Part shown: one piece after another, positions 40,114 to 59,346 of the stretch | How the letters are laid out: every line of letters starts with the position of its first letter | Numbering within the stretch: position 1 is the stretch's first letter | Origin: an uncultured Acidobacteriia bacterium | GTDB taxonomy: Bacteria; Acidobacteriota; Terriglobia; Bryobacterales; Bryobacteraceae | Assembly (NCBI GenBank): GCA_903825445.1 | Contig: CAIKAS010000200.1 | Span: 45,968 to 109,967 of the forward strand | Direction of reading: 5' to 3' | DNA: 64,000 bases | Program-made: the position numbers and the translations under genes | Notes under the pieces: model-generated | Told to the model about the DNA's origin: nothing | The model's database searches: none | The model's input: the letters and a program-made list of their open reading frames with translations, nothing else

Positions 40114-40139
40114 AAGAAACTCCTTCCAGGTCCGCATTG

Positions 40140-41684: not shown

Positions 41685-41772
41685 TTTAGGGTGCACGGGT
41701 CCTTTTTTGGGGAGAATTCGAGCGCAGAAATCCTTCATAACGCTATCAGTTGGATGGGCCGGGAGCAAGATA

Positions 41773-41794
41773 TTAACGGTGGCGCTACCGTTAA
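41773..41794. promoter_or_regulatory. 22-bp inverted repeat, putative operator site A
   Basis: TTAACGGT GGCGCT ACCGTTAA, perfect 8-bp arms, about 90 bp upstream of the 41684 start. Confidence 0.7.
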
Positions 41795-42187
41795 CCGCCG
41801 GGAGTTGAGACACCTGTGACCCAAAACAGGGTTGGCTGGCCCCGATTTCGGTGGGTTTGACGGTCCCTGGGGTGGGTTCATTGGGCCATTCCGTGGCTTC
41901 ACCAGGGGTCTGGGTGGGTTCATTATTTTCGGATTGTTCTTTGTTTTCATCAACATTTTGGGTTCATTCCGCGCTTTTTCACTTTCCGGCGTATTTCGGG
42001 GCGGGTCGGCGGGGACATCGGGGCGGTTTTGACGCGACAATTCTCGTTTGATGCTGGCGGATTTGACGGCGTTGGCCTGATTGGCGGCGAGTATTGGCTG
42101 GAAGACTGGCATACGACTAAGAGTATGCATGAGGCAACAAGGGCGACGGAGCTAAGTTATTGAAAGAGTGGAAGAAAATTGGCGTGA

Positions 42188-42235
42188 CCGTCTCACGCAG
42201 ATGCCGCAGAGTTCTCGCAGAGGGACGCAGAGGAA
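42188..42235. repeat. GCAGAG-type short repeat cluster
   Basis: ctcacgcagatgccgcagagttctcgcagagggacgcagagg, iterated (A)CGCAGAG units in intergenic DNA. Confidence 0.5.
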
Positions 42236-42332
42236 ACCGACCCTGGGGAATTTTGCGAGTTTCCTTGGCTATGGATGGGCACGCATGAACGCAGATGGAG
42301 AATCGGTGTAATAATCGTATTCACAGGCTGGC

Positions 42333-42545
42333 ATGCTATCCATTCAGCTGGATCCTGAAACTGAGCGACGTCTGGCCGTACTTGCGCGGCGAACAGGACG
42401 CAGTGAGGACACCTGCGTCCGTGAACTGATCGAACAAAATATAGAGGATCTGGAAGATCGTTATCTGGCGGAGTCGCGGCTGGAAAACCGGCGCGAGCCA
42501 CTGACCAGTATGCAGGTGCGCAAAGATCTTGCCCTGGACGATTGA
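42333..42545 (+). CDS. RelB/CopG-like ribbon-helix-helix antitoxin
   Basis: MLSIQLDPETERRLAVLARRTGRSEDTCVRELIEQNIEDLEDRYLAESRLE; RHH pattern, followed by RelE-like sequence. Confidence 0.83.
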   Translation: MLSIQLDPETERRLAVLARRTGRSEDTCVRELIEQNIEDLEDRYLAESRLENRREPLTSMQVRKDLALDD

Positions 42546-42739
42546 GTACGACCCGATGACATTGAAGGATCTGAAGAAACTCGGACCCGCGCAACTTTGG
42601 TAAGCCGCTACGCTCGAGCAAGTTCGGACTATGGCGTTATCGCGTCCGCGACTACCGCGTCATTTGCGAAATACAGGATTCCCGGCTGGTGGTGTTTGTC
42701 GTTGCTGCGGGTCATCGAAGCACTATTTACGACGATTAA
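42529..42739 (+). pseudogene. RelE/ParE-family toxin, frameshifted
   Basis: Frame 1 from TTG 42529: (M)PWTIEYDPMTLKDLKKLGPAQLW*; continues in the +1 frame from 42602: KPLRSSKFGLWRYRVRDYRVICEIQDSRLVVFVVAAGHRSTIYDD*. Joined, these give a typical RelE. Confidence 0.85.
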
Positions 42740-42829
42740 GACCGAATGGCAATTTGTATCGCGCGTGAGAGCGACCATCAGACAGTTAGAAGAGCGTGCA
42801 CCCGACGATATGGCAGCATTCGGCTTCTG

Positions 42830-44458
42830 TCACTTCGCTTGTGGAGTGGCGTCCGCATCAATCAGACCGAGTGCGTAGCGGATGCCCTGCAGAATGTGAT
42901 TTTGAACCGCGAGCGCCACTGGCGCCTGGTTGAAGCGGACTTTGTATTCCTGATCGCCGATCGTTCCGTCGGGCAGCAGGACATCGTCGCGATGGCCGAG
43001 TGACGTATAGAACACGCGGCCGTTGCCGTATTTCTTAATCCAGGACACCGGATAAACACCGGCCTCCTTTGTATACGGCTGAACCGGCATGGCGAGCAGC
43101 AGATGTACCTGTTTTGGATCGTAATTCTTAAAGAGATAGAACTCTTCATTGATGGCAACGGACTTGCCCCAGCCCGCAGTAACGGGGCTCGCGGGATCCA
43201 TGTTATCCACCGGAGCCTTCGGGTGAAACTGTCCGTGGCCGGCAAACTCGGCGCCGATCATTTTGATATATTCCGGGGTCTGATGGAGCGTGTCAGTGGC
43301 CGAATGCAGACCGATGAAGCCGTGGCCGTCGGCGATCCACTTAAAGAACGCATCTTTGTCGGGAATTGGCAGTTCGCCGGTGGTGCTGAGAAACGCGATC
43401 GCGTCATAGTTCTTTAAAGCTTCGGGATTCAGGTACTGCTGCAACACTTTCGCGATAGCGGCTGTCGTCGGATCTGGCGCACCCGGGCCACCCGGACCTC
43501 CGCGTCCGCCTCTTCCTCCACGCCCGCCGTCACCCTGTGAAGCCAACTGGAATTGTGCGGGCTCCAGTTTGTCAGGCGACGCCTGAATTTTCGTAAATGC
43601 CGCCGCTTTCGCATTGGCGAGGGCAAGTTCGGCGGCGTCGAATGCGATTCCTTTCTCCTTGACGTCCCCCAGAGTCGCCCCACTGGCCCAGGCCGCACTG
43701 CCAACAGCCGCGCGCGCGGCGGTTACCGCTTGATTGAGAGGCATCAATGAACTGTTCATCGCGTTCACGGCAGCCTGCTGTGAATCTGTCAATGGCTTTG
43801 GCGCCTCGGATGCCGCCGCGCCTCTGCCCGGGCCACCGCGGCCACCTCCGCCGCCGGCAGCCGCGAGGGCCTGTAGCTGATCGGCATCCAGTTTTGCCGC
43901 GGACGCCTGAATCTTATTGAGAGCCTGGAGACGCGCGTAGGCGACGGCCAACTCGGCATTTGTCTCGGCGTTGACTTTGGATTTGATGTCCGAAGCATCG
44001 GGTTTGTCCGAGAAAATGGCGCTATTCAGTGCCGCTGTTGCGGATGTTACGGCAGCGGTGAGTGGGGCGAGGGAAGCATTCATGCTCGCCACAAAAGCCA
44101 GTTGCTCCGGAGTTCCACGGGGGCCGTCAAAGCCTCCGGCTATCGCAGGCACATCGTTAGGGTAGGCCTTGCCCACCTGTATGCGGGCATTACGCTGGTC
44201 CACTCCTGCCTGGTATGAGGCAGTTGGGAAATCCGGGCTGTCGGTCGTCGAAACAATTGTGAACTCACCGGTCGATTTCGCCAGTTGCCGGACTATTTGT
44301 TCCTGGAGCGGAACCGCGGCGTGGCGAAAGCCAAGGGTAGTGGTGACGAGGAGCAAGCGCTTCGGTGCGGCCGCTTTTGCGGTGAGTGGTGCTAAAAAGT
44401 GCAGGCTCACGACTGCGCTGACCGCACACAAACCCAGAATCAGGCTGATCTTCTTCAT
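42830..44458 (-). CDS. Exported ThuA-domain protein with large helical/Gly-rich insertion
   Basis: RLLLVTTTLGFRHAAVPLQEQIVRQLA...YDAIAFLSTTGELPIPDKDAFFKWIADGHGFIGLHSATDT...AINEEFYLFKNYDP. Confidence 0.85.
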   Translation of the reverse strand: MKKISLILGLCAVSAVVSLHFLAPLTAKAAAPKRLLLVTTTLGFRHAAVPLQEQIVRQLAKSTGEFTIVSTTDSPDFPTASYQAGVDQRNARIQVGKAYPNDVPAIAGGFDGPRGTPEQLAFVASMNASLAPLTAAVTSATAALNSAIFSDKPDASDIKSKVNAETNAELAVAYARLQALNKIQASAAKLDADQLQALAAAGGGGGRGGPGRGAAASEAPKPLTDSQQAAVNAMNSSLMPLNQAVTAARAAVGSAAWASGATLGDVKEKGIAFDAAELALANAKAAAFTKIQASPDKLEPAQFQLASQGDGGRGGRGGRGGPGGPGAPDPTTAAIAKVLQQYLNPEALKNYDAIAFLSTTGELPIPDKDAFFKWIADGHGFIGLHSATDTLHQTPEYIKMIGAEFAGHGQFHPKAPVDNMDPASPVTAGWGKSVAINEEFYLFKNYDPKQVHLLLAMPVQPYTKEAGVYPVSWIKKYGNGRVFYTSLGHRDDVLLPDGTIGDQEYKVRFNQAPVALAVQNHILQGIRYALGLIDADATPQAK

Positions 44459-44515
44459 AGTGTTTCGACTCCGTTCTATTACGCTAACAGGCTTTTCGCT
44501 TAAGTCCGCGGCACG

Positions 44516-46216
44516 CTACTGCAGGTAAAAGCAGTACAACCCGTCCCGCGCCGCGACCACCACGTACTGTTTGCCATCCATAAGGAAGGTCTCGGGTGAA
44601 TTGGACACGGTGGCGCCAACAGGCGCGTGCCATAGAATCCTGCCGCTGCGGTCATCATAGGCAATAAAGTTCCCGGAAGGATCTCCCGTGAAGAGAACGC
44701 CGCCAGCCGTGGTGAGAATTCCAGGATAGGTGCTTGACCAAAACCCCGTTTGGGGGTAGTGGTGTGACCATTTCACGGCGCCGGTTCGATAGTCGAGCGC
44801 CAGCAATGAGGAATCGAAGAGTCCAAGATGATACTCAGAGCCGCGCGCAAATCCGGTTGGATCGGTGTCATCTTTGACAGCTGAGAAAATACTGGCAGCG
44901 TTGGTCGCATTCACATAGAACAGTGCTGTGTCAGGACTGAACGAAGGCGCCGGATAGTTGGCCGCACCGTCAGAATCGGGAAAAACCAGAGATCCGCCGG
45001 GCGATGGTTCTTTGTCAGGATCGGGAATGAGCGTCCCGGTCGCATCGAGTCCCTTGTAAGTATTGCTGAGCGCAAAAGGCTTCGCGACCAGCTCTTTGCC
45101 GTTCGTACGATCCAGAAGAAAATAGTAGCCATTGCGGTTGGCCTGCGCCAGCAGTTTTCGTGGCTGGCCGTTGATCGTGCCATCTATCAGGACCGGAACC
45201 TGGGTGGCATCCCAATCGTGCGTATCGTGCGGGGAGAACTGGTAATACCAGGTCATCTTCCCAGTATCGGGATTCAGCGCAACAACGCAGGAGGTGTACA
45301 GATTTGCTCCGGGCCGGCCTCGCCCGTTGTAAGTGGGGGTGGGTTGCCCCGTCGTCATATACATCAGGTTGAGCGCCGGATCATACGTTGGAGGCTGCCA
45401 CGGGCCACCGGCGCCTTTGGCTGCGGCTTCAGGACTCGGCCAGGTTTCGACACCCGGCTCTCCCGCCGCTGGAGTAACGACCCACTTCCATTGCATGTCA
45501 CCTGTTTCGGGGTCAAGCGATTCGACCCAGCCGATGCCGGAACCCGAGTCACCGCCGATTCCGACGATAACGTGGTTGCGGATGATCACCGGGGCTGAAG
45601 TGGAAAAGTTGGACGAGCCTGTTACCTTCAAATCCTTATGCCAGCGCTCGTGGCCGGTCTGCGCGTCGAGCGACACGATTCTGTTGTCGCCGGTTTCAAG
45701 AAAGAGCCAACTACCGTACATCCCCACTCCGCGGTTGCCGATTGCCGCACCGCCTACGGTCGCGTAGTGCCAGCGCTCTACACCGGTTCGGGCATCCACG
45801 GCGTAGACATGTCCGGGGACGGAAAGATACATCATGCCGCCAACCACCAGCGGTATGGACTTAATGGTGGGGCCCGCAGCGGCGCCTCCGCCAAATCCGC
45901 CGCCACCGCCGCCCCCACCGCCACGGCCCTGCTGCGCCGCCGCGGCCGCCGCCGTCACGTCGGACTCTACGATAGCGTTTTGGGTGGAGGAGGTGGTCCG
46001 ATAAATCCATGCGAGCGAAAGGGAGCGCGCATTGGATGCATCGATTTGTTTGAGAGGACTGTAGTGCCGTCCGGAATAATCACCGTGATAGCCAGGCCAG
46101 AGTCCGGTTGAAAGATCGTTCATGACAGCTGGATTCAGAGATGCGTCCTGAGCCAGCAGAATAAAAGGGACTGTGCCGACAGCGATGAGGCCACACAAGG
46201 CTGGAAGACGTTTCAT
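44516..46216 (-). CDS. PQQ-dependent-dehydrogenase-like quinoprotein
   Basis: WPGYHGDYSGRHYSPLKQIDASNARSLSLAWIYRT; HVYAVDARTGVERWHYAT; TWYYQFSPHDTHDWDATQVPVLID. Confidence 0.88.
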   Translation of the reverse strand: MKRLPALCGLIAVGTVPFILLAQDASLNPAVMNDLSTGLWPGYHGDYSGRHYSPLKQIDASNARSLSLAWIYRTTSSTQNAIVESDVTAAAAAAQQGRGGGGGGGGGFGGGAAAGPTIKSIPLVVGGMMYLSVPGHVYAVDARTGVERWHYATVGGAAIGNRGVGMYGSWLFLETGDNRIVSLDAQTGHERWHKDLKVTGSSNFSTSAPVIIRNHVIVGIGGDSGSGIGWVESLDPETGDMQWKWVVTPAAGEPGVETWPSPEAAAKGAGGPWQPPTYDPALNLMYMTTGQPTPTYNGRGRPGANLYTSCVVALNPDTGKMTWYYQFSPHDTHDWDATQVPVLIDGTINGQPRKLLAQANRNGYYFLLDRTNGKELVAKPFALSNTYKGLDATGTLIPDPDKEPSPGGSLVFPDSDGAANYPAPSFSPDTALFYVNATNAASIFSAVKDDTDPTGFARGSEYHLGLFDSSLLALDYRTGAVKWSHHYPQTGFWSSTYPGILTTAGGVLFTGDPSGNFIAYDDRSGRILWHAPVGATVSNSPETFLMDGKQYVVVAARDGLYCFYLQ

Positions 46217-46809
46217 TTGAGTGTCACCAGATACGCTGTGAGGTCGTGCATGATTTTGTCGGTCAGTTTGGGGAGCAGATCGAGATGAGCCTGGGCGGGG
46301 TCCGTAATTGTCACCGACGGAACATCGCCGTTGCGCGTGATGGTCTGCAGAGCGCCGGTGGAGTCTTTAAAGGTTACGTGAAAATCATCCAGGGAAACAA
46401 CCGAGCCGGAAAGGGCGGGTCCAGAAGGCATTTTTACGACGACTTTCAACGGCAAATCGGGCTTGGCGGGCGCCGCGCCCAGAGAAGGATAGCCACCTGA
46501 TCCGCGCGGAAGAACCATACGGCCTTCCAGCGCGACTCCAGTCAGCCGGGTTGCGATGCCCTTCAGATCACCGGTCGGTGAATGGCACGTTGAACATTTT
46601 CCCGCTCCGTTAAAGTAGGCTTCGCCGGCCTTCGCGTCGCCAACGATTTCAATAGGGCTGGCGCCGCGGCCGCCTCTGCCACGTCCCGGCCCCGGTCCGC
46701 CCGACGCGCCAGCGGGGCCAGCGGGTAAATTACCGTTCTGCGGCGGTTGCGCCAGCAGAACTCCCGCTCCAGACGCAATAAACAGTAATAAAGCTGCCGA
46801 GAGTTTCAC
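46213..46809 (-). CDS. c-type cytochrome domain protein, exported
   Basis: Single CSTCH haem motif, signal peptide, GPGRGRGGRGASP linker; 4-nt overlap with the downstream quinoprotein gene. Confidence 0.83.
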   Translation of the reverse strand: MKLSAALLLFIASGAGVLLAQPPQNGNLPAGPAGASGGPGPGRGRGGRGASPIEIVGDAKAGEAYFNGAGKCSTCHSPTGDLKGIATRLTGVALEGRMVLPRGSGGYPSLGAAPAKPDLPLKVVVKMPSGPALSGSVVSLDDFHVTFKDSTGALQTITRNGDVPSVTITDPAQAHLDLLPKLTDKIMHDLTAYLVTLK

Positions 46810-46854
46810 GCTACCAGTCCCTGGGTTCGATCCGGTTTCCGTGGCTAGTATATT

Positions 46855-48186
46855 TCACGAACTCTGCTGGCAACTTGTTTCGCGCGTCATGGCGATCATT
46901 ACACAGGACAAGAGGGACCACCCGACGATCAGGACAAAAGCGGACTGGTAGGCCTCTACGCCATAGACGTGCGCTCCCTTGAGCATGGTGCCCGTCCAGT
47001 TCTTGTCGAGCAACATGCCAATGCCCGGTTGCAGGAAGACGTTGCCCAGCATATTGCCTATGTTTGCTGCGGCGGTCGCAGTCCCCATGTGGCGGGCCGG
47101 TACGGATTCGCGTCCGTAGGCAAAGGCAATCACGACGCAGCCGGTGGCGAAGCTGGTGAGGGCTGCCACCAGCGTAAATGCGGCCAGCGGAAGGCTCTTG
47201 GCGTAGATCATGACGGCCCAGCCGAACGCGCAGGCAATCGAACCGAGTAAATAGGCAGGTTTGCGAAGTCGCAGCTTATCGGAGATGCCGCCAAAGACGG
47301 GACTGGCCACGGCCCAGCAGACGATCATGACCGAACAGATCGTCGCAGAGGCTTTCGGTTCCAGGCCGAAGCGGGCCTTGAGAAAGGGCGCGCCCCAGAG
47401 ACCGGTGAAGGTCATGATCGGCCCCACCATGCCTCCCTGTGCGAGCAGGATGAGCCAGGTATTGCGGACCGAGAAAACGCTGCGTACTCCGACCACGATA
47501 CTGCTCAAAGTGACTTTATCGTGCTCCTGGAGTGCGGCCGAGGCATAGCTTTCGAGACCCTTTTCGCTGGGATCGTCACGAACGAAGAGCCAGGCGAGAA
47601 TGCCGATCGCGAGAATGAGGGCGGAAGAAACGAGCGCAGTGCCGCGCCAGCCGAAATACTCGACACCGAGGCGCAACGGAACCTGAGCGAACAGAGCGCC
47701 AAGATTGCCGAAGAACAGACTGAGGCCGGTGAGCATGGCGAATCTGCGGTTCGGGAACCAGTGGGCGGCGAGGCGCAGGACGACGAGCCAGCCGACAGCG
47801 GTTGAGCCACCGATGATGGCGCGGCCGAGACAGGCTAGCGCGAAGTTACTGGTGGCACCGAAGAGAAATTGCCCGAGGGCGGCGGAGACTGCACCGATGA
47901 CCAGGAGTTTGCGGGGACCCAGCGAACTGGTGAGGGCGCCAATCGGAATCTGCATGGCTACGTAGAAATAAAAGTAGAATGCGGAAAGATTGCCGAGGCT
48001 GCCCGCGCCGATTCCAAAATCGCGCATCAGCTCGGTCGTCATGACGGCGGGGGCTGCGCGCAGGAAGAAGACGCACAGGTAGAAGACTGCCCCGATGCCC
48101 CATACGGCCCATGACAACCAGGCTTTGGGGTACGGCCTTGCGCCAGCTTTATTCGCGTTCGTTACGGTATCGATGGATGCTGGCAT
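46855..48186 (-). CDS. MFS transporter
   Basis: Multi-TM protein, FYFYVAMQIPIGALTSSLGPRKLLVIGAVSAALGQFLFG. Confidence 0.9.
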   Translation of the reverse strand: MPASIDTVTNANKAGARPYPKAWLSWAVWGIGAVFYLCVFFLRAAPAVMTTELMRDFGIGAGSLGNLSAFYFYFYVAMQIPIGALTSSLGPRKLLVIGAVSAALGQFLFGATSNFALACLGRAIIGGSTAVGWLVVLRLAAHWFPNRRFAMLTGLSLFFGNLGALFAQVPLRLGVEYFGWRGTALVSSALILAIGILAWLFVRDDPSEKGLESYASAALQEHDKVTLSSIVVGVRSVFSVRNTWLILLAQGGMVGPIMTFTGLWGAPFLKARFGLEPKASATICSVMIVCWAVASPVFGGISDKLRLRKPAYLLGSIACAFGWAVMIYAKSLPLAAFTLVAALTSFATGCVVIAFAYGRESVPARHMGTATAAANIGNMLGNVFLQPGIGMLLDKNWTGTMLKGAHVYGVEAYQSAFVLIVGWSLLSCVMIAMTRETSCQQSS

Positions 48187-48216
48187 CTCGGCTTTAGTAG
48201 ATGATGGACTGACCGG

Positions 48217-48230
48217 GTCGGTGCACCGAC
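48217..48230. promoter_or_regulatory. Perfect 14-bp palindrome GTCGGTGCACCGAC between TPP-enzyme gene and MFS gene
   Basis: Self-complementary 14-mer in a 75-bp intergenic gap. Confidence 0.4.
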
Positions 48231-48261
48231 TCCCTCGCGGTCGCGGCTCAGAAACAATAGG

Positions 48262-50040
48262 CTAGTCGCCTTTGCGGAAGATGTCGTGAATCTGCCAGTG
48301 GCCAGGGGTCGGGGTGGGGGCATCTTCCATCGCGGCCTGGATTACGGTCGGCTGACCAGAAGCAAGTGCTTCTTTAAGCGCGGGACCCAGTTCATCGGCG
48401 GACTTGATCATGACGCCGCGCGCGCCGGCAGATCGTGCCATTGCAGCGTAGTCAGCCCAGTATGGTTTGCCTTCCGCCTCGAAAGTCGTCCCAAAGTTCC
48501 AGCCGTAGTGGATTCTTTCCAGACGTCCAATGGTGCCAAAACCGGCATTGTCCATGACCAGCCAGACGACAGGCAGCTTCGCTTCGACTGCCGTGTAGAC
48601 CACAGACGGATTGCTGCTGAAGCCACCGTCGCCAACGAGACAGACGGCAGCGCGATGGGGTTGCCCGGTCTTGACGCCGAGTACGGCTGCGGGACCAAAG
48701 CCCATGGTGGCCAGTCCGCTCGGTGTGATGAAGGTACCGGGGACATTGATGGGGAATTGCTGTGCGACACCGTTCTTGTTCCAGCCGACGTCAGTGACGA
48801 TGAAGCCGTCATCGGGAAGCGCTTTTCGCAATTCACTCAGGATTCGCTCCGGGCGCATGGGGAAACTGTCAGACGCCCACTCGCCGGCCCAATTATCGGC
48901 AAAGCCTTTGCGGCCGTGCGCAATCTCTTCGCGAAGTTGTCCGCGGTCGTTATGCTTCACGCCCTTCGCGGCTTTCGCCAGAGCGCCAAGGGCGAGTTTG
49001 GCATCGGCGACTACACCCAGTTCGGTCTGGAAATTACGCCCAATCTCCGCCAGATCGGCATCAATATGAATCAGGCGCGTGGGTGGCATCGCGAACGTGT
49101 ATTCAGGGAACCAGGAACTTGAACTTGCTTCGGCGAGGCGCGTACCTACCGCAAGAATGAGGTCGGCGGTACGGCATTTTTCATTCGAGACCGGAGTTCC
49201 CCAGAAGCCCGTCATTCCGAGTAACAGCGGGTGATCCTCACGCATGGAGCCCTTACCCATCAACGAGTGGGCCACCGGAACTTCCAGCGCTTCAGCCAAT
49301 GCTTCCAGTTCGGCAGTTGCACGTGCGGACTGAACGCCTCCGCCGGCATAGATGACAGGGTTCTTCGCCGTCGCGAGCGCCTTCACGATGCGGTCAGCAG
49401 TGGCTTCGTCGATGGTCGGCCGGGAGATTTCCGGCGGCACCTTGTCAAACGCGTCCACGGCGAGATCGGCGGAGAGAATATCCATCGGGATATCCACGAG
49501 TACGGGGCCGGGCCGGCCAGTTTGTGCGATGTGGAATGCGCGCTCTACGATGCGAGGCAAGTCTTCGACGCGCTCGACGCGAAAGACGCGTTTGCAGAAG
49601 GGGCGATACATCTGGCTCTGATCGGCGTCGGCGTGAAGATTGATTTCCTGATGAGGATGACGGCCGTAATAGCAGGTGGGGACGTCACCGGCGAACACTA
49701 CCATGGGGACGGAATCGAGGGCAGCAGTCGCAACGCCGGTGGTCGCATTGGTGAGCCCGGGGCCGAGGTGGCTGAGGACCACACCTACTTTGCCTGTGGC
49801 ACGGGCGTAGCCGTCGGCCGCATGGGCCGCCACCTGTTCATGACGGGAGGTGATGAAGCGGATTTTGCTCTTTCCCAGCGCATCCAGCAAAGCAATGATG
49901 GTGTGGCCGCAGAGACCGAAGATGACCTCTACGCCCAGCTTTTCGAGATAATCCGTCAGCAGGTATGACGCGATGCGCGTTTCCGCTTTTTTCTCAGTCT
50001 CCAGATGCTCTACACTTGCGGGCGTACTCATAGATTCCAT
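48262..50040 (-). CDS. Thiamine-pyrophosphate enzyme, acetolactate synthase-like
   Basis: GVEVIFGLCGHTIIALLDAL...RHEQVAAHAADGYARATGKVGVVLSHLGPGLTNATTGVATA...GDGGFSSNPSVVYTAVEAKLPVVWLVMDN TPP motif. Confidence 0.92.
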   Translation of the reverse strand: MESMSTPASVEHLETEKKAETRIASYLLTDYLEKLGVEVIFGLCGHTIIALLDALGKSKIRFITSRHEQVAAHAADGYARATGKVGVVLSHLGPGLTNATTGVATAALDSVPMVVFAGDVPTCYYGRHPHQEINLHADADQSQMYRPFCKRVFRVERVEDLPRIVERAFHIAQTGRPGPVLVDIPMDILSADLAVDAFDKVPPEISRPTIDEATADRIVKALATAKNPVIYAGGGVQSARATAELEALAEALEVPVAHSLMGKGSMREDHPLLLGMTGFWGTPVSNEKCRTADLILAVGTRLAEASSSSWFPEYTFAMPPTRLIHIDADLAEIGRNFQTELGVVADAKLALGALAKAAKGVKHNDRGQLREEIAHGRKGFADNWAGEWASDSFPMRPERILSELRKALPDDGFIVTDVGWNKNGVAQQFPINVPGTFITPSGLATMGFGPAAVLGVKTGQPHRAAVCLVGDGGFSSNPSVVYTAVEAKLPVVWLVMDNAGFGTIGRLERIHYGWNFGTTFEAEGKPYWADYAAMARSAGARGVMIKSADELGPALKEALASGQPTVIQAAMEDAPTPTPGHWQIHDIFRKGD

Positions 50041-50099
50041 TTGCCTTTCTGCACTTCAAACTCTGATTGTCTCCCGGTTTGCCACCGGACGCCAACAAA

Positions 50100-50121
50100 G
50101 TAACCGTGGCGGAACAGTTAC
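50100..50121. promoter_or_regulatory. 22-bp operator-like site C
   Basis: GTAACCGTGGCGGAACAGTTAC, 16/22 identical to site A; about 60 bp upstream of the TPP-enzyme gene. Confidence 0.5.
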
Positions 50122-50174
50122 GTAATTCCGGAACCCCCCGCGAGGGGCCACCCAATCATCGCAAACGACTGATT

Positions 50175-50213
50175 ATAAAAGCAATCGGGCGAGCCGCCGG
50201 CCCGCCCGATTGC
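50175..50213 (-). terminator. Rho-independent terminator of the TonB-dependent receptor gene
   Basis: Minus strand: GCAATCGGGCG GGCCGGCGGCT CGCCCGATTGC followed by TTTTAT; 11-bp perfect stem downstream of the stop at 50238. Confidence 0.9.
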
Positions 50214-50237
50214 CGAGTGTAAACAACTGGCGATCGG

Positions 50238-53200
50238 TCAAAAGGCGAACTTCAGGGCAAACTGCATAATGCGTCCCTGCGTTCCGCCGCTGGCGGTGCT
50301 CTGCACGATTCCCGGAGCCAGCTTACCGAAGGTGGAGCTATTCACTGTGGCGTTGACGCTGCCCCACATAACGCTGTTGGTAAGGTTGAACGCTTCCGCA
50401 CGGAATGTTAATGTCTTGCGTTCGCGAATCGTGAAGTTTCGCGACAGCGAGGCGTCGATATTCCAGACGTCCGGATTTGAAACCGTGAATGGTCTGGTAG
50501 AGGCAAATGCCCCGGTGACTTCGGTTGTATCCGTGAGGAACGCGGCTGGATTCAGGTAGCCGTAGCCGTTGACTCCTCCAGTGCCATAGACATCCGGGAG
50601 AATCTGCTGTGCCCTCTGGCCGCTGGTATTAATCAGGGCCGCGTCATTGCCGTAGGCAATGGTAGCAAGGTTACCGGTGCTCCAGTGATAAATGGGCGAC
50701 AACTGCCAGCCATTGACAAGCATATTGAGCCACTTGTCACTCATCTTCGGCGACTGCAGGACACCGGAAATGTTGACCTGCTGACGGTGATCGTTGGCAC
50801 AGTTGGAGTAGTCGGCGTTACGGTTACCCGGCTGTTCATAGGTGGGGCCCGTGACTTCCGTGGTGACCGGATCGCAGAGAGCGTGGGACCAGGTCCAGTT
50901 GGCGAGGACACTGAAATGATTTCCGAGGCGATGTTGGGCAGTCATTTCCGCGCCGTTATAGCTGGAAGTGGCTCCGCCGTCCACATAAGCGATGGTGCTG
51001 TAGTACGACGCCCAGGTGGGATTCAGCAACTGAAGCGTTCTGCGGTTCGCATAATTGGCCGTAGATGAACAGTTTCCAGCCGCTTTCAGTCCGTACTGAC
51101 CCGCGGCACAAGTGCCGGGAATGTAGACAACCGGATTATCTTCCGTGCTGGTCCACAGGTGGGCGCCGTGGTTGCCAATATAGGCAACCGTGAGCAGCCA
51201 GTTATGCATCGTCCGCTGAATCGCCAGGTTCCACGTACCTACCTGGTTGGCCTTCAGGTTCGGATCGGATACGGCGTAGGTTCCGGCCAGCGGGAAGAAG
51301 CCAAAGTTCTTGCCCGAGCCGCTGCTGGTTGTGTTCGCGGATACTGCGAACGGGTCGCCGCCAGCGTAACCAGCCCACGGATTGGAGAGAGGCGTATCTA
51401 CACCGGCGTTATAGGTAACGGTCGCGCCCCAGGGAGGATTATTCGAAACGCGGGTGTAGAAGAACATGTGGGGATTGTCATAGAGCAAGCCGCCAGACAG
51501 ACGGATGGAGGTCTTGCCATCGCCAAACGGATCCCATGCGATACCCGCGCGCGGCTCAAAGTGCAGCGAGGAGTGTTCGTAGGTCTGATTGGGAGGAGCA
51601 CCGGGATCGCCCGAGAAAATGAGCCCCGCAGGAGGGTTCAGAACCGGGTTTGCCTTGGGGGGCGTGTCGACAATACCGGCGGCGTAGTTGGCGTAGCTGA
51701 AGAACTCGGTATAGTCGTCGGTATTGTGCTGTGGCCGGAAGGGCTCAAAGCGGAGGCCGAGGTTCACGGTGAGGTGTGAAGTGGCGCGCCACGCGTCCTG
51801 AGCGTAAAAACCGTAGTAGTTCGACTGATCGTCATCATAGAACGGTCTGCCCTGGCTAAATCCATTCATCTGGCCGGTCAGGAAGTCGGCATAGCCTTCA
51901 CCGAGAATTCCGGTGGTGGCGGTCGCATTGGAGAACTGGCCCGTGAAGCTAAGGTTGCCATTCACGCCGCGGGTGTTCTGCGCGTGCATGTAAGCGCGAA
52001 TGAACTGGGCACCAAACTGAAGCTGGTGTTTCCCTTTGACCCAGGTAAAATCCTGTGCACCCGAGTATGTCAGGGTGTTGAAGTACCCGGGATTCGCGGC
52101 GCCGGAGCCACCAGTGGTGAAGCCATTACTGATGCTCATTGTGGTTTCACCGGGGATCTGGGCGGTGATGGGAATTCCAAATTCCGAGGGGACCGCGAAA
52201 TCGTAGATGAAGCGCGTATTCAGACTGCGGTTCGCCTCGATATGAGTGCTGCTGAAGAGCGTGGGTTTGATAGTGTAGGTTTCACCGACCACCGTGCTCT
52301 GGATGTTGTTGAGCTGACCGGTGGTGGCGCCTGTGAAGAGCACATCAGTCGGGTCGACGTACGTGGGCGTCAAATTGTTGGACAGCTGATAACGCACAAA
52401 CGCGGCATTCTTCTGATTGATGTTGTAGTCAACCTTCACCGGGATCTGATACTGACGATCATTGGCGCCGCTGGCGTAGTAGAAGAGGCCGCATGCGTTG
52501 ACCAGATCGCTGGAGGGCGGAAGATACTTGGCAATCTTCAGGGCGATGGGATTCATTACCGACTGAGGGAGTGTGTTGTTTACCCAATTTCCGGCCGCAT
52601 TCTGAATGGTGACGGCCGTAGTCGTCTGGCAGCCGTAAGTGGTCGAGGCAACGGCCGTAAAGTCGCCGCTTAACATCGCCGGAGTCATCGAATAGCCAGT
52701 ATTGGTGGCGGGGTTCGAACGTTTGATGGTGGATTGTTCGCCGACAAAAAAGAACAGCTTGTTCTTCTTGATCGGCCCACCGATGGTGCCACCGAACTGG
52801 TTTTGCTTGAGACTGTCGCGTACGAGAGCCGTGGCGTTGCGGGCATTGAATTCGTAGTTGCGGACGTAGTCGAATACGTTGCCGTGATAGGCATTGGTGC
52901 CCGAGCGCGTGACCACGCTGACGGACGCCGCCGCATGCTGACCGACCTGGGCGCCTACCGCGCTGGTTTCGACTTTAAATTCCTGGAGCGCATCGGGAAA
53001 CGGCAAAGGCTGATTCAGGCCGTTGAAAGGTTCGTTGGCCGTAGCGCCGTCGAGTGAGAACGCGATGGTATCGGCGTTGGGCTGGCCGGACACAGAGATT
53101 GTAATCGTCGGGAAATTCTTGTTGCTGTTGAGATCGCTGGCGGAAACACCTTGAATGGTGGCGTTGCCCGCAAGAAGAATTAACTGAGTTGGATCGCGGG

Positions 53201-53636
53201 CATTCAGGGGCAGTTCGGCAACTTCCTCATGGTCGATGACCTGACCGACGCCGGTATCGTGGGTTTCAACCTGGAGTGCTTCGGCCTCAACGGTGACCGT
53301 CTCGCTGACCGCGCCGACCTTGAGAGTGGGGCTGATGGTGGGGTTGACGTTCACCTCAATAACCAGGTCAGCCTGCACGTATTTACTGAAACCGTCTTTG
53401 GTGACCTCCAGCCGGTAGGGACCGACGGGAAGATTGGGCAGAACGTAATCGCCCTGCGAGTTAGTGACCATGTTGCTGGTAAAACCAGTGTCGGTCTGTG
53501 TGACTTTGACGGTTGCGCCGGGAACTGCGCCACCGCTGGAATCGTGGACAGTACCGGTTATCTGTGAAGTAGATTGTGCCCACACCATGGTGGTCCACAG
53601 GAATGCAACGAAGGCTGATCGAACGAGGAACTTCAT
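50238..53636 (-). CDS. Oar-like TonB-dependent receptor with N-terminal carboxypeptidase-regulatory-like domain
   Basis: QITGTVHDSSGGAVPGATVKVTQTDTGF...YVLPNLPVGPYRLEVTKDGF; long outer-membrane barrel ending in aromatic LKFAF. Confidence 0.9.
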   Translation of the reverse strand: MKFLVRSAFVAFLWTTMVWAQSTSQITGTVHDSSGGAVPGATVKVTQTDTGFTSNMVTNSQGDYVLPNLPVGPYRLEVTKDGFSKYVQADLVIEVNVNPTISPTLKVGAVSETVTVEAEALQVETHDTGVGQVIDHEEVAELPLNARDPTQLILLAGNATIQGVSASDLNSNKNFPTITISVSGQPNADTIAFSLDGATANEPFNGLNQPLPFPDALQEFKVETSAVGAQVGQHAAASVSVVTRSGTNAYHGNVFDYVRNYEFNARNATALVRDSLKQNQFGGTIGGPIKKNKLFFFVGEQSTIKRSNPATNTGYSMTPAMLSGDFTAVASTTYGCQTTTAVTIQNAAGNWVNNTLPQSVMNPIALKIAKYLPPSSDLVNACGLFYYASGANDRQYQIPVKVDYNINQKNAAFVRYQLSNNLTPTYVDPTDVLFTGATTGQLNNIQSTVVGETYTIKPTLFSSTHIEANRSLNTRFIYDFAVPSEFGIPITAQIPGETTMSISNGFTTGGSGAANPGYFNTLTYSGAQDFTWVKGKHQLQFGAQFIRAYMHAQNTRGVNGNLSFTGQFSNATATTGILGEGYADFLTGQMNGFSQGRPFYDDDQSNYYGFYAQDAWRATSHLTVNLGLRFEPFRPQHNTDDYTEFFSYANYAAGIVDTPPKANPVLNPPAGLIFSGDPGAPPNQTYEHSSLHFEPRAGIAWDPFGDGKTSIRLSGGLLYDNPHMFFYTRVSNNPPWGATVTYNAGVDTPLSNPWAGYAGGDPFAVSANTTSSGSGKNFGFFPLAGTYAVSDPNLKANQVGTWNLAIQRTMHNWLLTVAYIGNHGAHLWTSTEDNPVVYIPGTCAAGQYGLKAAGNCSSTANYANRRTLQLLNPTWASYYSTIAYVDGGATSSYNGAEMTAQHRLGNHFSVLANWTWSHALCDPVTTEVTGPTYEQPGNRNADYSNCANDHRQQVNISGVLQSPKMSDKWLNMLVNGWQLSPIYHWSTGNLATIAYGNDAALINTSGQRAQQILPDVYGTGGVNGYGYLNPAAFLTDTTEVTGAFASTRPFTVSNPDVWNIDASLSRNFTIRERKTLTFRAEAFNLTNSVMWGSVNATVNSSTFGKLAPGIVQSTASGGTQGRIMQFALKFAF

Positions 53637-53740
53637 GGATACGACTCCTTGGCTGTAGCGAACTCTCTTGTTCTAAACTGAAGCGAAACCTAACCGGGAC
53701 TGATCGTATCACCGAAAATCCTGAGGTAACAATCAAGTAA

Positions 53741-53768
53741 CAGTAGTCGCACGGTAAAACGACTACTG
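53741..53768. promoter_or_regulatory. Inverted repeat CAGTAGTCG-N10-CGACTACTG
   Basis: Perfect 9-bp arms in the divergent TonB-receptor/ThuA intergenic region. Confidence 0.6.
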
Positions 53769-53803
53769 AAAATAAAGGACTAATGGGGTATGGTTTAACA
53801 TGC

Positions 53804-53825
53804 GTAACGGTGTTACAACCGTTAC
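53804..53825. promoter_or_regulatory. 22-bp inverted repeat, putative operator site D
   Basis: GTAACGGT GTTACA ACCGTTAC, perfect 8-bp arms, between divergent genes. Confidence 0.65.
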
Positions 53826-53949
53826 ATTGTGCCGGTGGCGCCGATCGGGTGATAGGTTAGTCGAGGGTTAGTTATGGTGGCGGACCGCGTCTCCCTCCGG
53901 GAGCGACGCGTTGCGTGTGTGCCGACCGCGTATTCCAAGGAGATACATC

Positions 53950-54954
53950 ATGATCGCGAATAGCAAGAGAACTCGAATTGGCTTCGTTTTGCTGGCCTTG
54001 TCCATTTGTGCAGTTTGGGCTGTGGCGCAACAGAATCCAGGCGGACCACCTGCTGGTTTTGGACCGGGCGGCCCGGGTGGCGGATCGGGTGGTCGCGGTC
54101 GTGGCGGTGGGCGAGGCGGATCGGGTGGCCGTGGCGGTGGTGGCAGGGCTGCGCGAACCAAGAAGGTAGTGCTGGCGTGGGCCGATACACGCAACGGGAT
54201 TGCGCAGCACGATTTCACCTCGCATGCGCTGGCGATCATCGAGCGGCTTGGTTATGAGTCAAACCTTTGGGACACCTATATCAGGACCGACTCGAACATT
54301 GTTTCCTACAGCCCGAAAATGACGACAGGGCAACCGGCCAGCGGCGGACCCAGCCTGAACACGGCGGACGCGATCTTCTTCCTGGGACACAGGGAAATTC
54401 AGCTTGACGACCAGCAGAAGGCCGATTTACTGAAGTTCGTGCATGACGATGGCAAGGGCTTCGTAGCTGCACACACGGCCCTGACGGCTCTGAATTCGTG
54501 GCCGGATTTCGTCGACATGCTGGGCGGTAGTTTCGACGAGCATCCTTATGGATCAGTGCCTGGAACCGTCATCAACGAAGACCCGACTTTCCCCGCTACC
54601 AAGCAGTTTCCGGCGACCTTTGCCTTTACGGATGAGTTTTATCAGGTGAAAGATTTCTCGCGTGAAAAGAGCCGCGTGTTGCTGCGGCTGGATATTTCGA
54701 AGATGCCACCGAACCAGAACGTGCACAGCAAGGATGGCGACTTCCCGCTCGCCTGGGCGAAGATGTACGGCAAGGGTCGGGTGTTCTATGGATCGTTTGC
54801 GCACGACGCGAAGAACTGGGATAACCCGGACGTGTATCACATGTATTTCGAGGCGATCAAGTGGTCGCTGGGGCTGACGGATGCTGATGTGACACCGCGA
54901 CCGTATCCGGGGACCGCAGCAACGCCAGTGAATGCTGCCGGACCGGGACGTTAA
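53950..54954 (+). CDS. Exported ThuA-domain protein with Gly/Arg-rich N-terminal tract
   Basis: VVLAWADTRNGIAQHDFTSHALAIIERLGYESNLW...GKGFVAAHTALTALNSWPDFVDMLGGSF...FPLAWAKMYGKGRVFYGSFAH. Confidence 0.87.
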   Translation: MIANSKRTRIGFVLLALSICAVWAVAQQNPGGPPAGFGPGGPGGGSGGRGRGGGRGGSGGRGGGGRAARTKKVVLAWADTRNGIAQHDFTSHALAIIERLGYESNLWDTYIRTDSNIVSYSPKMTTGQPASGGPSLNTADAIFFLGHREIQLDDQQKADLLKFVHDDGKGFVAAHTALTALNSWPDFVDMLGGSFDEHPYGSVPGTVINEDPTFPATKQFPATFAFTDEFYQVKDFSREKSRVLLRLDISKMPPNQNVHSKDGDFPLAWAKMYGKGRVFYGSFAHDAKNWDNPDVYHMYFEAIKWSLGLTDADVTPRPYPGTAATPVNAAGPGR

Positions 54955-54993
54955 GAGAGAGTCAAGTAAGAACCGGGACGCCTTGCGGCGACA

Positions 54994-55033
54994 GCACCGG
55001 CTGGAAAGCCGGTGCGCGGGCAGGATTGCCCGC
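54994..55033. repeat. Two adjacent hairpins, REP-like double-stem element
   Basis: GCACCGGCT GGAA AGCCGGTGC immediately followed by GCGGGCA GGAT TGCCCGC. Confidence 0.65.
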
Positions 55034-55058
55034 CCTCCAATCGAATCGGAGATATGCG

Positions 55059-57023
55059 ATGAATATACGAGTGATTGTCACCGGCGTAGCGTTGACGCTG
55101 ATTACCGGCGCCGCTGTTTCTGCTCAGAATAACTGGGCTTCGTTTGGACAGGATCAGGGGGCGACACGCTTTTCAAAGCTGAACCAGATCAATGCGACCA
55201 ATGTTCAGAAGCTGGAAAAGGCCTGGACTTTCCACACTGGTGCTCCCAACGCGCAGAACGAGATGACTCCGATCATCGTCGACAGCGTGATGTACATTTC
55301 GGCAAGCAACGGTTACTTTGCCGTAGACGCGGTGACCGGCAAGCAGATCTGGAAGTACGATGCGACGGGGACAACGGAGCGTGGTCCGGCTTATTGGCCG
55401 GGCGATGCGAAATCGCCGGCGCGCGTTATCGGCGGCGTGGGTGAAAGCATTGTCGCCCTGGATGCGAAGACGGGCAAGCCGGTTCCGGAGTTCGGGAAAG
55501 ACGGGCTGGTGGATATCGGCACCAGAATGCAGTCGCCGCCGGCGATTTACAAGGAACTACTGATCGCCCCGAGCATGGATCGCCTGGTACGCGCCTGGAA
55601 TATCCGGACGGGAGAGTTGGTCTGGACTTTCAATCTTGTGCCGCAGCCAGGTGAGCCTGGGCACGAAACCTGGGAAAGCGACGCGTGGAAGACGACCGGC
55701 GGTGTAAACGTGTGGGGCCATATCACGGTGGATACGACGCTGGGAATGGCTTACGTTCCGACGGCGCCGCCTTCGCCCGACTATGTGGGCGTGAGCCGAC
55801 CCGGCGACACGCTGTATGGGACATCGCTGGTGGCGCTGGACGCGAACACCGGGAAGCTGAAGTGGTATCACCAGCTTGTGCATCACGACCTTTGGGATTT
55901 CGATTCGGCGTCGGCTCCAACCCTGGTGGATGTTGTGCAGAAGGGGGTGAAGATCCCGGCAGTGGTCCACATGGGCAAGACGGGATTAATGTACATTTTC
56001 GACCGGCGCGACGGTAAGCCGATCTTCGGGATGGAAGAGAGGCCGGTGCCGCAAAGCACGGTGCCGGGCGAGAAGTCGTCGCCGACGCAGCCGTTTCCGG
56101 TGAAGCCGGAACCGATCGCCCGAATCAGCATGAAGATGTCTGAGATTCCGAAAGATATTACGCCGGAGCTGGCAGCTTATTGCCAGGGTCTGGTGGATAA
56201 GTACAAGCTGACTGATGCGGTGCCTTACAACGCGTGGAAAGTGGATCAGGACATTGTGGAGTATCCGGGCGCCATTGGCGGCGGAAACTGGAACGGAACT
56301 TCGTTTAACCCGACGCTGGGTTTGATTTTCACCAACGTCATGAACGCCGGACAGTGGGGCCATTTGCAAACAGGTGGCCGCGGCGGCGGTGGCGGACGGG
56401 GTGGTTCCGGCGCTGGCGGGCGAGGCGGTTCGGGTGCGGGCGGACGTGGCGGTGCGGGATTCGTCGCAGGCGGACCGGGCGGGCCCGGTGGACCGGGTGG
56501 ACCTGGTGGTGGACGCGGCGGGTCGGGTGGGCGCGGCGGTGGTGGTGGGCGGGGTGCGGCCGGGGGATCGGGACCGTCGTATTCGAAGGTTACGCCTGAG
56601 GGCGGACGATTCTGGCAGCCCGACACACGGTATTCGTGCGCACCTCCACCATGGGGTGAGTTAGTGGCGGTGAATGCTAACACGGGCGATATCGCATGGC
56701 GGGCTCCGCTCGGCTCATTCGATGAACTTACAGCGAAGGGCCTGAAGAGCGGCACGCCAAATACTGGCGGTGGGATTGCGACGGCGGGAAATCTGATCTT
56801 TATCGGCGCCACGGTGGATGGCAAGTTCCGTGCTTTCGATGCGCGTAATGGCAAGGAATTGTGGTCGGTGAAGGTGGATGCGCCGGCACATGCGATTCCC
56901 GCCACCTATCTGGGACGTGACGGGAAGCAGTACGTGGTGGTATCGGCGGCTGGCGGCGGATTCCTGCGGGATCCAACTTCCGATGCCGTGATCGCATTCT
57001 CATTGCCGGGCAAAGGCAAATAG
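55059..57023 (+). CDS. PQQ-dependent dehydrogenase (quinoprotein, glucose/alcohol-type) with long RGG insert
   Basis: NNWASFGQDQGATRFSKLNQINATNVQKLEKAWTFHTG...KWYHQLVHHDLWDFDSASAPTLVDV...FRAFDARNGKELWSVKVDAPAHAIPATYLGRDGKQYVVV. Confidence 0.92.
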   Translation: MNIRVIVTGVALTLITGAAVSAQNNWASFGQDQGATRFSKLNQINATNVQKLEKAWTFHTGAPNAQNEMTPIIVDSVMYISASNGYFAVDAVTGKQIWKYDATGTTERGPAYWPGDAKSPARVIGGVGESIVALDAKTGKPVPEFGKDGLVDIGTRMQSPPAIYKELLIAPSMDRLVRAWNIRTGELVWTFNLVPQPGEPGHETWESDAWKTTGGVNVWGHITVDTTLGMAYVPTAPPSPDYVGVSRPGDTLYGTSLVALDANTGKLKWYHQLVHHDLWDFDSASAPTLVDVVQKGVKIPAVVHMGKTGLMYIFDRRDGKPIFGMEERPVPQSTVPGEKSSPTQPFPVKPEPIARISMKMSEIPKDITPELAAYCQGLVDKYKLTDAVPYNAWKVDQDIVEYPGAIGGGNWNGTSFNPTLGLIFTNVMNAGQWGHLQTGGRGGGGGRGGSGAGGRGGSGAGGRGGAGFVAGGPGGPGGPGGPGGGRGGSGGRGGGGGRGAAGGSGPSYSKVTPEGGRFWQPDTRYSCAPPPWGELVAVNANTGDIAWRAPLGSFDELTAKGLKSGTPNTGGGIATAGNLIFIGATVDGKFRAFDARNGKELWSVKVDAPAHAIPATYLGRDGKQYVVVSAAGGGFLRDPTSDAVIAFSLPGKGK

Positions 57024-57037
57024 AAGGCGGGAATTCC

Positions 57038-58438
57038 TTAGAAGATTTCGGAGTTGTAGAACTCGCCGAACAATTCTTCGTCCGAGGGCCTGTCTTCCGG
57101 GATGGGCCTGCTGACCCACGTCACATTCATGTAGTGTTTCAGTGAGACGTTCTCATTAGTGCTGTTGCCGCCCCAGTAACCGCAGCCCATGCTGGAAGTC
57201 ATCGGCATGCCGTTGGTGAACGTACCGGCATTCGAACTGGACTGGATCTGGCGGACCATCATGCGGCTCACCGGCGCAGTCAGTGCCAGTTCGTTAATGT
57301 GGTCGTCGTTCCAGGAATAGATGCCGCAGGAGTGGCCTCTGCCGCCTGTCTGAAAGATCTGTCGCACCATGTCGAGGGCCATGGGCCAGCCTGTGTACCT
57401 GAGGATCGAGAGGACGACACCCAGCTTCTCCGTCGTAAAAAGATATTCCTTGCCGATGTGCTGTTCGGGAACGATAAAGAAGCACTTCTCAGCAGGGATT
57501 TCGAAACCTGCGAGCTTCGCGACTACGGCGGCGGAGCGGGCGATGGTGGCCGGAGTGCGGTGGCCTTCGGCGTCCCAGTAAGCGGCCTGGAGCAGCGCCT
57601 TTTCTTTTTCGTTGACGAGATAGCCGCCTTCGAGCTGTAGCTGCTTCAGGAAGGCATCGTAGATGCTGCTCTCCACAATCAGATTGCCATCGGCTGAACA
57701 GCCGGAGCCGTTGTCGTTCGTCTTGCTGATGCGGGTATTTCTGGCCGCGATATCGATATCGGCAGTTTCATCGAACACCATCGTGGCGTTGCCTGCGCCG
57801 ACACCGAGAGCGGGCTTGCCGGAACTGTAGGCAGCGCGCACCATAGCCTGGCCACCGGTTGCCATGGTGACGTCACAGATCGACATGATCTCCTGCGAAA
57901 GCGGAATGCTGGGGGCTTCCACGCACTGCAGAATGTCTTCGGGAGCACCGAGCTTTTTCAGCGCCGCGCGCATGACGCGAACCGTTTCGCGCGTAGTCTT
58001 TTTGCTGGCGGGATGCGGGCAGAATATTACGGCATCCTTGCACTTGAGTGCGTAGATGGCCATGCCGGCCGGCGTGACATAAGGACTGGTGACCGGGATG
58101 AGCGCGGCCACAACACCGGCGGGCTTCGCATACTTAACGAGACCTTTCGTCGGATCTTCCTCAATGATGCCCATGCTCTTTTGGCGCAGGGCGTCGCGTA
58201 GAATTCCGAGAACCTTTGCACGACGCGTGGGGGCGCGGCCGCCCATGCCACTCTCATCCACGCTCATATTGGCGAGGCGAGTGGCGGTTTCCATGTTGGC
58301 AGTGGCCCAGGCGACGGCGCGGCAGAGCCGGTCGACACGCGGCTGATCGTAATCTTCTATGGCCTGCATCGCAACGCGGGCTTTCGCCAGCGTTTCAGCA
58401 GCAACTTGCTTTTCCTGTTCGGTGATGGGTCTTGCCAT
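57038..58438 (-). CDS. CoA-acylating aldehyde dehydrogenase (EutE/sulfoacetaldehyde dehydrogenase-like)
   Basis: AKPAGVVAALIPVTSPYVTPAGMAIYALKCKDAVIFCPHPASKKTTRETVRVM...ALGVGAGNATMVFDETADIDIAARN. Confidence 0.88.
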   Translation of the reverse strand: MARPITEQEKQVAAETLAKARVAMQAIEDYDQPRVDRLCRAVAWATANMETATRLANMSVDESGMGGRAPTRRAKVLGILRDALRQKSMGIIEEDPTKGLVKYAKPAGVVAALIPVTSPYVTPAGMAIYALKCKDAVIFCPHPASKKTTRETVRVMRAALKKLGAPEDILQCVEAPSIPLSQEIMSICDVTMATGGQAMVRAAYSSGKPALGVGAGNATMVFDETADIDIAARNTRISKTNDNGSGCSADGNLIVESSIYDAFLKQLQLEGGYLVNEKEKALLQAAYWDAEGHRTPATIARSAAVVAKLAGFEIPAEKCFFIVPEQHIGKEYLFTTEKLGVVLSILRYTGWPMALDMVRQIFQTGGRGHSCGIYSWNDDHINELALTAPVSRMMVRQIQSSSNAGTFTNGMPMTSSMGCGYWGGNSTNENVSLKHYMNVTWVSRPIPEDRPSDEELFGEFYNSEIF

Positions 58439-58504
58439 GTGGTCTCCGGCTACTAAAACGAACGGTCACTTCCGTGCTGGTCGATTCCGACTAATCCCCT
58501 TGGA

Positions 58505-59275
58505 TTAATCCATAGATCGCGGTGGTACGCCATCGTACTTCACCGGAACGCGAATTCGCATCGGTTTTTCGCGGGTATATTCTTCGGCTACTTCCGCAGT
58601 GAGACCGGCAACGCGACCCACGATGAAGAGCAACTTGCCTGCGGCGGGAGGGAACCCCAGATCGTAGAGAATGGCCGCAAGCGCTCCATCGATGTTGATG
58701 GGCAGCGGCTTGATCTTCTCACGAACAGCGGCATCGAGTGCCTCCATGAAGAGGACGCCGTCTCCTGCGACACCTTCTTCGCGAGCCATAGCGAAGAGGA
58801 CAGCGGTTCTCGGATCGACGGAATGAACGCGGTGGCCCATGCCTGGCAGCCGACGTTTGGTGGTGCGCGAATTGTCGACGATTTGCCCGGCGGCTTCGGC
58901 AAACGTGATGGATTTCTCACGCGCGATGCCGACGCCCTCCGCGATCATGGACATGCAATCGGCGCCGGCGCCACCATGGTCATTCCCGATGGCGAGGATT
59001 CCAGCAGCGATGGCGGCAGAGAGTGATTCGCGATTCCCGGTAGCGGCAAGGCGAGCGGTAGCACAGGATGGAGCTCCGGAGCCGTGATCCGCAACCGATA
59101 TCAGGACCGCATCGAGGAGCCTTCGCTCATGTTTATTGGGAAGACGTTCGCGGTGCAGGAGGAAGACTGTGTCGGCAAAGGTCGCGCGTGCCATCAACTC
59201 GGTGATGTCGTAGCCGCGAAGCCTGATCGTGGAATCGTCTGCCTGGACGATTGCTGTGCGCCATGGTTCTAGCAA
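58505..59275 (-). CDS. Citrate synthase family protein, citryl-CoA-lyase-like
   Basis: IRLRGYDITELMARATFADTVFLLHRERLPNKHERRLLDAVLISVADHG...RRLPGMGHRVHSVDPR; short (256 aa). Confidence 0.83.
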   Translation of the reverse strand: MLEPWRTAIVQADDSTIRLRGYDITELMARATFADTVFLLHRERLPNKHERRLLDAVLISVADHGSGAPSCATARLAATGNRESLSAAIAAGILAIGNDHGGAGADCMSMIAEGVGIAREKSITFAEAAGQIVDNSRTTKRRLPGMGHRVHSVDPRTAVLFAMAREEGVAGDGVLFMEALDAAVREKIKPLPINIDGALAAILYDLGFPPAAGKLLFIVGRVAGLTAEVAEEYTREKPMRIRVPVKYDGVPPRSMD

Positions 59276-59324
59276 GTACCTATTATGCCTTCCAAAATGG
59301 ATTACGGCTAGAAATCAGGGCAGA

Positions 59325-59346
59325 TTTACGGTAGCGCCACCGTTAA
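59325..59346. promoter_or_regulatory. 22-bp inverted repeat, putative operator site B
   Basis: TTTACGGTAGCGCCACCGTTAA; 21/22 identical to the reverse complement of site A; about 50 bp upstream of the citryl-CoA-lyase-like gene. Confidence 0.7.

Follow-up and report, generated by a model that had tools for sequence, protein, structure and literature searches.

Five copies of a 22-bp inverted repeat (sites A to E) are located at the promoters of a single catabolic gene cluster in a 64,000-nucleotide stretch of DNA (the window) from an uncultured Acidobacteriia bacterium, and they probably represent the operators of a dedicated cytoplasmic one-component activator with a local regulon, encoded by the gene at positions 59441-61231. 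Sites A, B, C and D are present with the exact sequences and at the exact positions reported in a preliminary description of this DNA, and sites A and B match at 21/22 positions after reverse complementation, as was claimed there. A fifth site, E (GTAACAGTAGTCGCACGGTAAA), absent from that description, lies between site D and the TonB receptor gene.

41773..41794, minus strand: site A operator (TTAACGGTAGCGCCACCGTTAA, read on the minus strand), PQQ-like/pckG operon
50100..50121, minus strand: site C operator, TPP enzyme/MFS/quinoprotein/ThuA operon
53737..53758, minus strand: site E operator (new), TonB/Oar-like receptor gene, with 21-bp counterparts in genomes G001, G007 and G009
53804..53825, plus strand: site D operator, ThuA/PQQ-dehydrogenase operon
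59325..59346, minus strand: site B operator, citryl-CoA-lyase-like/aldehyde dehydrogenase pair

A scan of the window with the pattern KTWACSGT-N6-ACMGTTAM, allowing up to two mismatches, returned nine strand-matches where 0.22 were expected, and at least nine were reached in 0/100 shuffles. All five window matches at zero or one mismatch are intergenic, although the intergenic part of the 25.9-kb cluster amounts to only 1.65 kb. This bears out the proposed promoter placement of the sites, and the motif is not equally frequent inside genes, a distribution that had been named as one that would speak against a regulon. Site A is placed upstream of the propeller gene because the start of this gene is likely the ATG at 41684, which yields a signal-peptide-like N-terminus, and not the GTG at 41813, which opens the longest possible ORF and would enclose the site.

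No operon between 36.5 and 59.3 kb lacks one of the five sites; together these delimit a predicted catabolic regulon of roughly 13 genes, for several of which the pathway is unassigned:

36506..38308, minus strand: pckG, GTP-dependent PEP carboxykinase
38332..41684, minus strand: two overlapping PQQ/BamB-like propeller ORFs, predicted to be controlled from site A
42830..50040, minus strand: putative operon for a TPP enzyme, an MFS transporter, a 198-aa protein, an acido-empty-quinoprotein and a ThuA protein, site C
50238..53636, minus strand: TonB/Oar-like outer membrane receptor (PF25183), site E
53950..57023, plus strand: ThuA protein and PQQ-type dehydrogenase, site D
57038..59275, minus strand: acylating aldehyde dehydrogenase (SauS-like) and citryl-CoA-lyase-like protein, site B

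Judging from their annotations, the encoded enzymes suggest that an imported or periplasmic compound is oxidised and then converted to a thioester by the acylating aldehyde dehydrogenase, after which a lyase step could release oxaloacetate for gluconeogenesis by PckG. The PckG gene also adjoins the cluster in genome G276. Plant-derived acids are hinted at as the substrate class, since the clusters of relatives additionally encode a family III CoA-transferase, a tannase/feruloyl esterase and an enolase-like enzyme. Within the regulon, the product of 44516-46216 is a member of the NCBIfam 'acido-empty-quinoprotein group A' (Bitscore: 651.2; cut-off: 650), a group of quinoprotein relatives thought to lack PQQ. 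The propeller ORFs (38332-41813) have about 490 bases in common, read in different frames, and a similar pair is found in locus L071; the downstream start is probably misplaced, or else a frameshift is present.

Pattern searches of the bacterium's own genome (6.27 Mb in 364 contigs, 96% complete) identified exactly five exact matches to KTWACNGT-N6-ACNGTWAM, 5/5 of them confined to this cluster, and none to the reversed control pattern. When one mismatch was allowed, two additional matches were found elsewhere in the genome (reversed control: nine), one of them inside an ORF, and both are devoid of the promoter signature that accompanies the cluster sites, an extended -10 element at a fixed spacing. 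The earlier proposal of one shared operator and one local regulon is supported by this genome-wide exclusivity together with the conservation of the sites in relatives.

Among 61 genomes, comprising the bacterium's own and those of 60 relatives, at least two exact 22-bp sites are present in five (G000, G001, G007, G009 and G057), the first four belonging to the same genus and G057 to another family of the class. Genes for a TonB/Oar-like receptor, a TPP enzyme, an MFS transporter, an acylating aldehyde dehydrogenase and a citryl-CoA-lyase-like protein are common to all five, and ThuA and PQQ-type dehydrogenase genes occur in most of them. The window's arrangement, with sites at the citryl-CoA-lyase promoter and next to the TonB gene, recurs in G001, G007 and G009, and each of these genomes carries a 21-bp site at the position of site E, directed at the TonB gene. 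The gene order differs in G057, where the TonB/ThuA intergenic sites are kept and four sites are found in total. In a second same-genus group (G003, G006, G010, G014, G015, G017 and G018), the TonB promoter harbors a conserved 21-bp site, GTAACGTATCGACAC[T/C]GTTAC or near it. The 22-bp type also extends to further Bryobacterales, Candidatus Sulfopaludibacter, other Terriglobia and a groundwater Acidobacteria MAG. Sites of 22 or 21 bp thus occupy corresponding promoters in about 20 other genomes, and the absence of conservation at orthologous promoters, which the preliminary description considered damaging to its proposal, is not observed. A 21-bp operator tracking the regulator clade of G006, G010, G014, G015 and G018 was considered and dropped; G001, G007 and G009 also have 21-bp sites at their TonB promoters, and both 21 and 22 bp are therefore tolerated. 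In the distant genomes G276 and G363, only a diverged form of the site is left, at the citryl-CoA-lyase promoter. These forms, TGAACCGTATCGGCACGGTAGA and TCTACCGTGACGATACCGTTCC, are found at L101 14745-14766 and L102 5840-5861, respectively, between the MFS and citryl-CoA-lyase genes, and the regulator in these two loci is only 52-54% identical.

The position of the sites relative to the promoter is likewise conserved. An extended -10 element (TGnTAnnnT) starts 24 nt (22 sites) or 25 nt (8 sites) from the site edge in 30/44 sites. The sites stem from related loci and cannot count as independent, but the sequences between the elements differ widely. By comparison, the count averaged over all distances is 0.65, and the element accompanies, on either side, 0.09% of positions drawn at random from these loci. 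Furthermore, TTG[T/G] peaks at offset 4 from the site, representing a -35 element with a spacer of about 17 bp. With the T of TAnnnT set as -12, the 22-bp site spans about -61 to -40 and is centred at -50.5. Three of the window promoters carry the extended -10 element:

41740..41748, minus strand: TGATAGCGT, site A promoter, 24 nt from the site
53703..53711, minus strand: TGATACGAT, site E promoter, 25 nt from the site
53850..53858, plus strand: TGATAGGTT, site D promoter, 24 nt from the site

By eye, the -10 position of site C is occupied by GACAAT at 50071-50066 (left out of the 30/44), and site B is followed by a -10-like CATAAT at 59287-59282, about one helical turn beyond the spacing of the other sites. 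Also by eye, CATAAT or GATAAT lies at offsets 37-39 in the citryl-CoA-lyase promoters of the window, G001 and G009, and at offset 26 in G007. This spacing also holds in three further sites of relatives, examined later: two of them carry the complete TGnTAnnnT, and the third lacks the TG. When ten genomes were searched with a composite of half operator, 24 nt and TGnTAnnnT, all six matches fell within the clusters of the five regulator-bearing genomes; the five control genomes yielded no match, nor did the reversed control pattern. That the palindromes are chance occurrences, a repeat family or terminators finds nothing in its favour beyond the shortness of the motif, and it is so poorly compatible with the 0.22 matches expected in the window, the confinement to one genomic cluster, the retention at corresponding promoters and the fixed promoter spacing that we regard it as negligible.

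Activators bind just upstream of a weak -35 element on one helical face, whereas repressors more often overlap the promoter. The fixed site-promoter distance upstream of the -35, a feature of the activator class, is present in the 30/44 sites given above, and the geometry is taken as that of an activator because the sites are centred near -50, at fixed spacing, directly upstream of a weak -35. The preliminary description proposed that one dimeric repressor or activator coordinates the cluster; the coordination is supported, while the sign, which it left undecided, is now tilted by the promoter geometry towards activation. Palindromic operators and a locally autonomous regulon are common traits of repressor systems, and a dimer could, in the manner of LacI- or GntR-type local regulons, block RNA polymerase as long as no inducer is bound. 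However, about 4 nt separate the sites from the -35 downstream of them, the region from -35 to +1 is left uncovered, the -35 elements are weak, the shift at the citryl-CoA-lyase promoters amounts to about one helical turn, and no LacI/GntR-type gene recurs in the clusters (25 commonest families listed), making repression improbable.

For an activator, we propose that a dimer of the N-terminal domain would bind the two GTAACnGT-type half-sites and sit directly upstream of weak -35, extended -10 promoters, with its centre at about -50 or, at the citryl-CoA-lyase promoter, about one helical turn further upstream, from where it would recruit sigma-70 RNA polymerase. The signal would presumably be sensed by the central and TPR domains. 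A single activator would in this way control the receptor, quinoproteins, ThuA proteins, TPP enzyme, transporter, aldehyde dehydrogenase, citryl-CoA-lyase-like enzyme and PEP carboxykinase. Leaderless transcripts are possible at the citryl-CoA-lyase-like and propeller genes, because the predicted -10 boxes nearly abut the start codons (59282-59275, TTG, and 41740-41738, in-frame ATG, respectively).

Among characterized systems, the CRP/CAP box is similar in being a 22-bp 8-6-8 palindrome upstream of the -35 element. Its half-site is TGTGA, whereas that of the sites described here is GTAACnGT. Class II CRP/CAP boxes are centred at -41.5. Class I boxes are centred at -61.5 (PMC10936776), while most of the sites here have their centre near -50. 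Genes of the CRP family do not recur at the loci (25 commonest families listed).

The preliminary description recognised no classical regulator gene in the cluster and placed the regulator elsewhere, which is probably incorrect. The best candidate, from the co-occurrence of its orthologs with the sites, is the adjoining gene 59441-61231, which lies just past the end of the region covered by that description. The protein does not resemble a classical regulator because its N-terminal domain is without a Pfam model.

59441..61231, minus strand: probable regulator (596 aa) with an N-terminal domain of about 125 aa, a HilA/CadC-like central part and TPRs
60848..61231, minus strand: N-terminal putative DNA-binding domain with an invariant FDPRxDPIVRVxARRLR helix

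Orthologs sharing at least 65% identity are found in exactly the 5/61 genomes with two or more 22-bp sites, a co-occurrence expected by chance in 1 in 5.9 million cases if the genomes were independent, four of the five sharing one genus. In addition, 12/12 genomes with the citryl-CoA-lyase-like gene (at least 63% identity) have a regulator ortholog of about 56% identity or more, that of G003 being partial, at a contig edge. The regulator gene is located in or beside the enzyme genes, in varied orders, in G000, G009, G057, G006, G010, G015 and G014, as well as in L084-L089, L092, L094-L096, L099, L101 and L102, loci which were retrieved via the regulator itself and hence illustrate its surroundings without giving an unbiased frequency. 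In G001 the gene shares a contig with the enzyme genes but lies about 25 kb from them, and in G007 it is on another contig. In the phylogenetic tree, the window regulator groups with those of G001, G007 and G009. No site was found at its own promoter.

A different protein might bind what are nonetheless true activator sites, either a paralog (G000:C230) or a classical factor encoded elsewhere, with the TPR protein as a co-regulator or passenger. Such a paralogous clade, sharing about 60% identity, is encoded elsewhere in 4/5 site-bearing genomes (L068-L071; G000:C230, G007:C97, G001:C77 and G009:C234), an IclR regulator gene is located inside one cluster, and a role of the N-terminal domain in DNA binding is deduced from context, Foldseek giving no significant match. 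However, G057 has four sites yet no member of the paralog clade, no canonical site was found in the paralog loci L068-L071, and no other DNA-binding family recurs among the 52 other cluster ORFs, for which the 25 commonest families were listed and singletons may escape. Classical regulator genes, those of the LacI, GntR and IclR types included, likewise show no recurrence beside the sites in relatives (25 commonest families listed). We thus consider a different binder unlikely, and the 59441-61231 protein the better candidate. In L069 and L070, a compact GTAACGGTAAC/GTAACGGTTAC is located upstream of the adjoining gene encoding a 394-396-aa protein, and is perhaps the paralog's own operator.

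The 59441-61231 protein contains TPRs identified by Pfam, and its central/TPR part matches the NCBIfam models of HilA (56 bits; cut-off: 589) and CadC (17 bits; cut-off: 400), in both cases below the cut-off. HilA/CadC-type proteins are one-component activators that combine an OmpR-like winged helix with a C-terminal sensor or TPR region. The window protein resembles them in its central domain and TPRs, which follow an N-terminal DNA-binding candidate, and in its proposed activator role; the context supports the analogy that it may work like a HilA-type activator. It differs in that its match to HilA lies far below the cut-off, its N-terminal domain is not matched by Trans_reg_C (PF00486), so that membership of this family is not evident from sequence, and its operator is an inverted repeat; CadC is membrane-bound, whereas no membrane helix was found in the window protein, which is predicted to be soluble. 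SARP/AfsR regulators have a SARP-NOD-TPR architecture and activate promoters with a poor -35, from an AfsR box that consists of two direct repeats of 11 bp, has its centre at -29.5 and lies about 8 bp from the -10 (PMC10936776). The likeness to the window protein lies in the N-terminal DNA-binding part (a candidate here), the TPR C-terminus and the poor -35 promoters, while the operator here is an inverted repeat near -50 that ends 24/25 nt before the extended -10, and no SARP or NOD match was found in the window regulator.

Across 23 homologs, the FDPRxDPIVRVxARRLR stretch of the N-terminal domain shows no or almost no variation, and in the model it forms a long basic helix (83-101) flanked by a short helix and a two-strand hairpin. 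The AF2 model (pLDDT: 85) shows an H-H-H-hairpin arrangement, with the order of elements as in a winged helix. Trans_reg_C matched none of 14 homologs even at an E-value of 10, and the domain has no Pfam match and no significant match among PDB sequences. Foldseek of the domain against the PDB gave a best E-value of 2.4, which is not significant, with no winged helix among the matches, and the full model matched TPR proteins only. In a profile alignment (hhalign) with eight OmpR-type domains of the same genome, the invariant helix falls on the recognition helix, a weak alignment whose score was reached by 1/100 column shuffles and which is suggestive only. We infer that the protein binds DNA through this domain, dimerises, activates transcription and senses a ligand.

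The domain is found in 90/151 sampled genomes of the class, with 1-20 copies each (four in the bacterium's own genome, or five in a looser search), joined to TPRs or PD40 propellers, a combination familiar from OmpR-type one-component regulators. The operator is not common to this whole family, because it was seen at up to one mismatch beside other members in L144 only. We lean towards the view, held with only slightly better than even confidence, that the domain (FDPRxDPIVRVxARRLR...LPKGGY) is an uncatalogued DNA-binding domain and that this locus, if so, is the first to reveal how operator and promoter are laid out for such a family of one-component activators in the Acidobacteriota. Acidobacteria are abundant soil bacteria, and a keyword literature search found no description of the motif, cluster or regulator type in them. 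A Pfam-less domain family is here tied to a precise operator and promoter layout, and a DNA-binding role is therefore directly testable with short probes. One of the regulator loci, L096, is on a contig titled Rhodanobacteraceae, and its regulator, TonB, ThuA and TPP genes are Acidobacteriota-like; the contig is probably wrongly binned, or else the locus was acquired by transfer.
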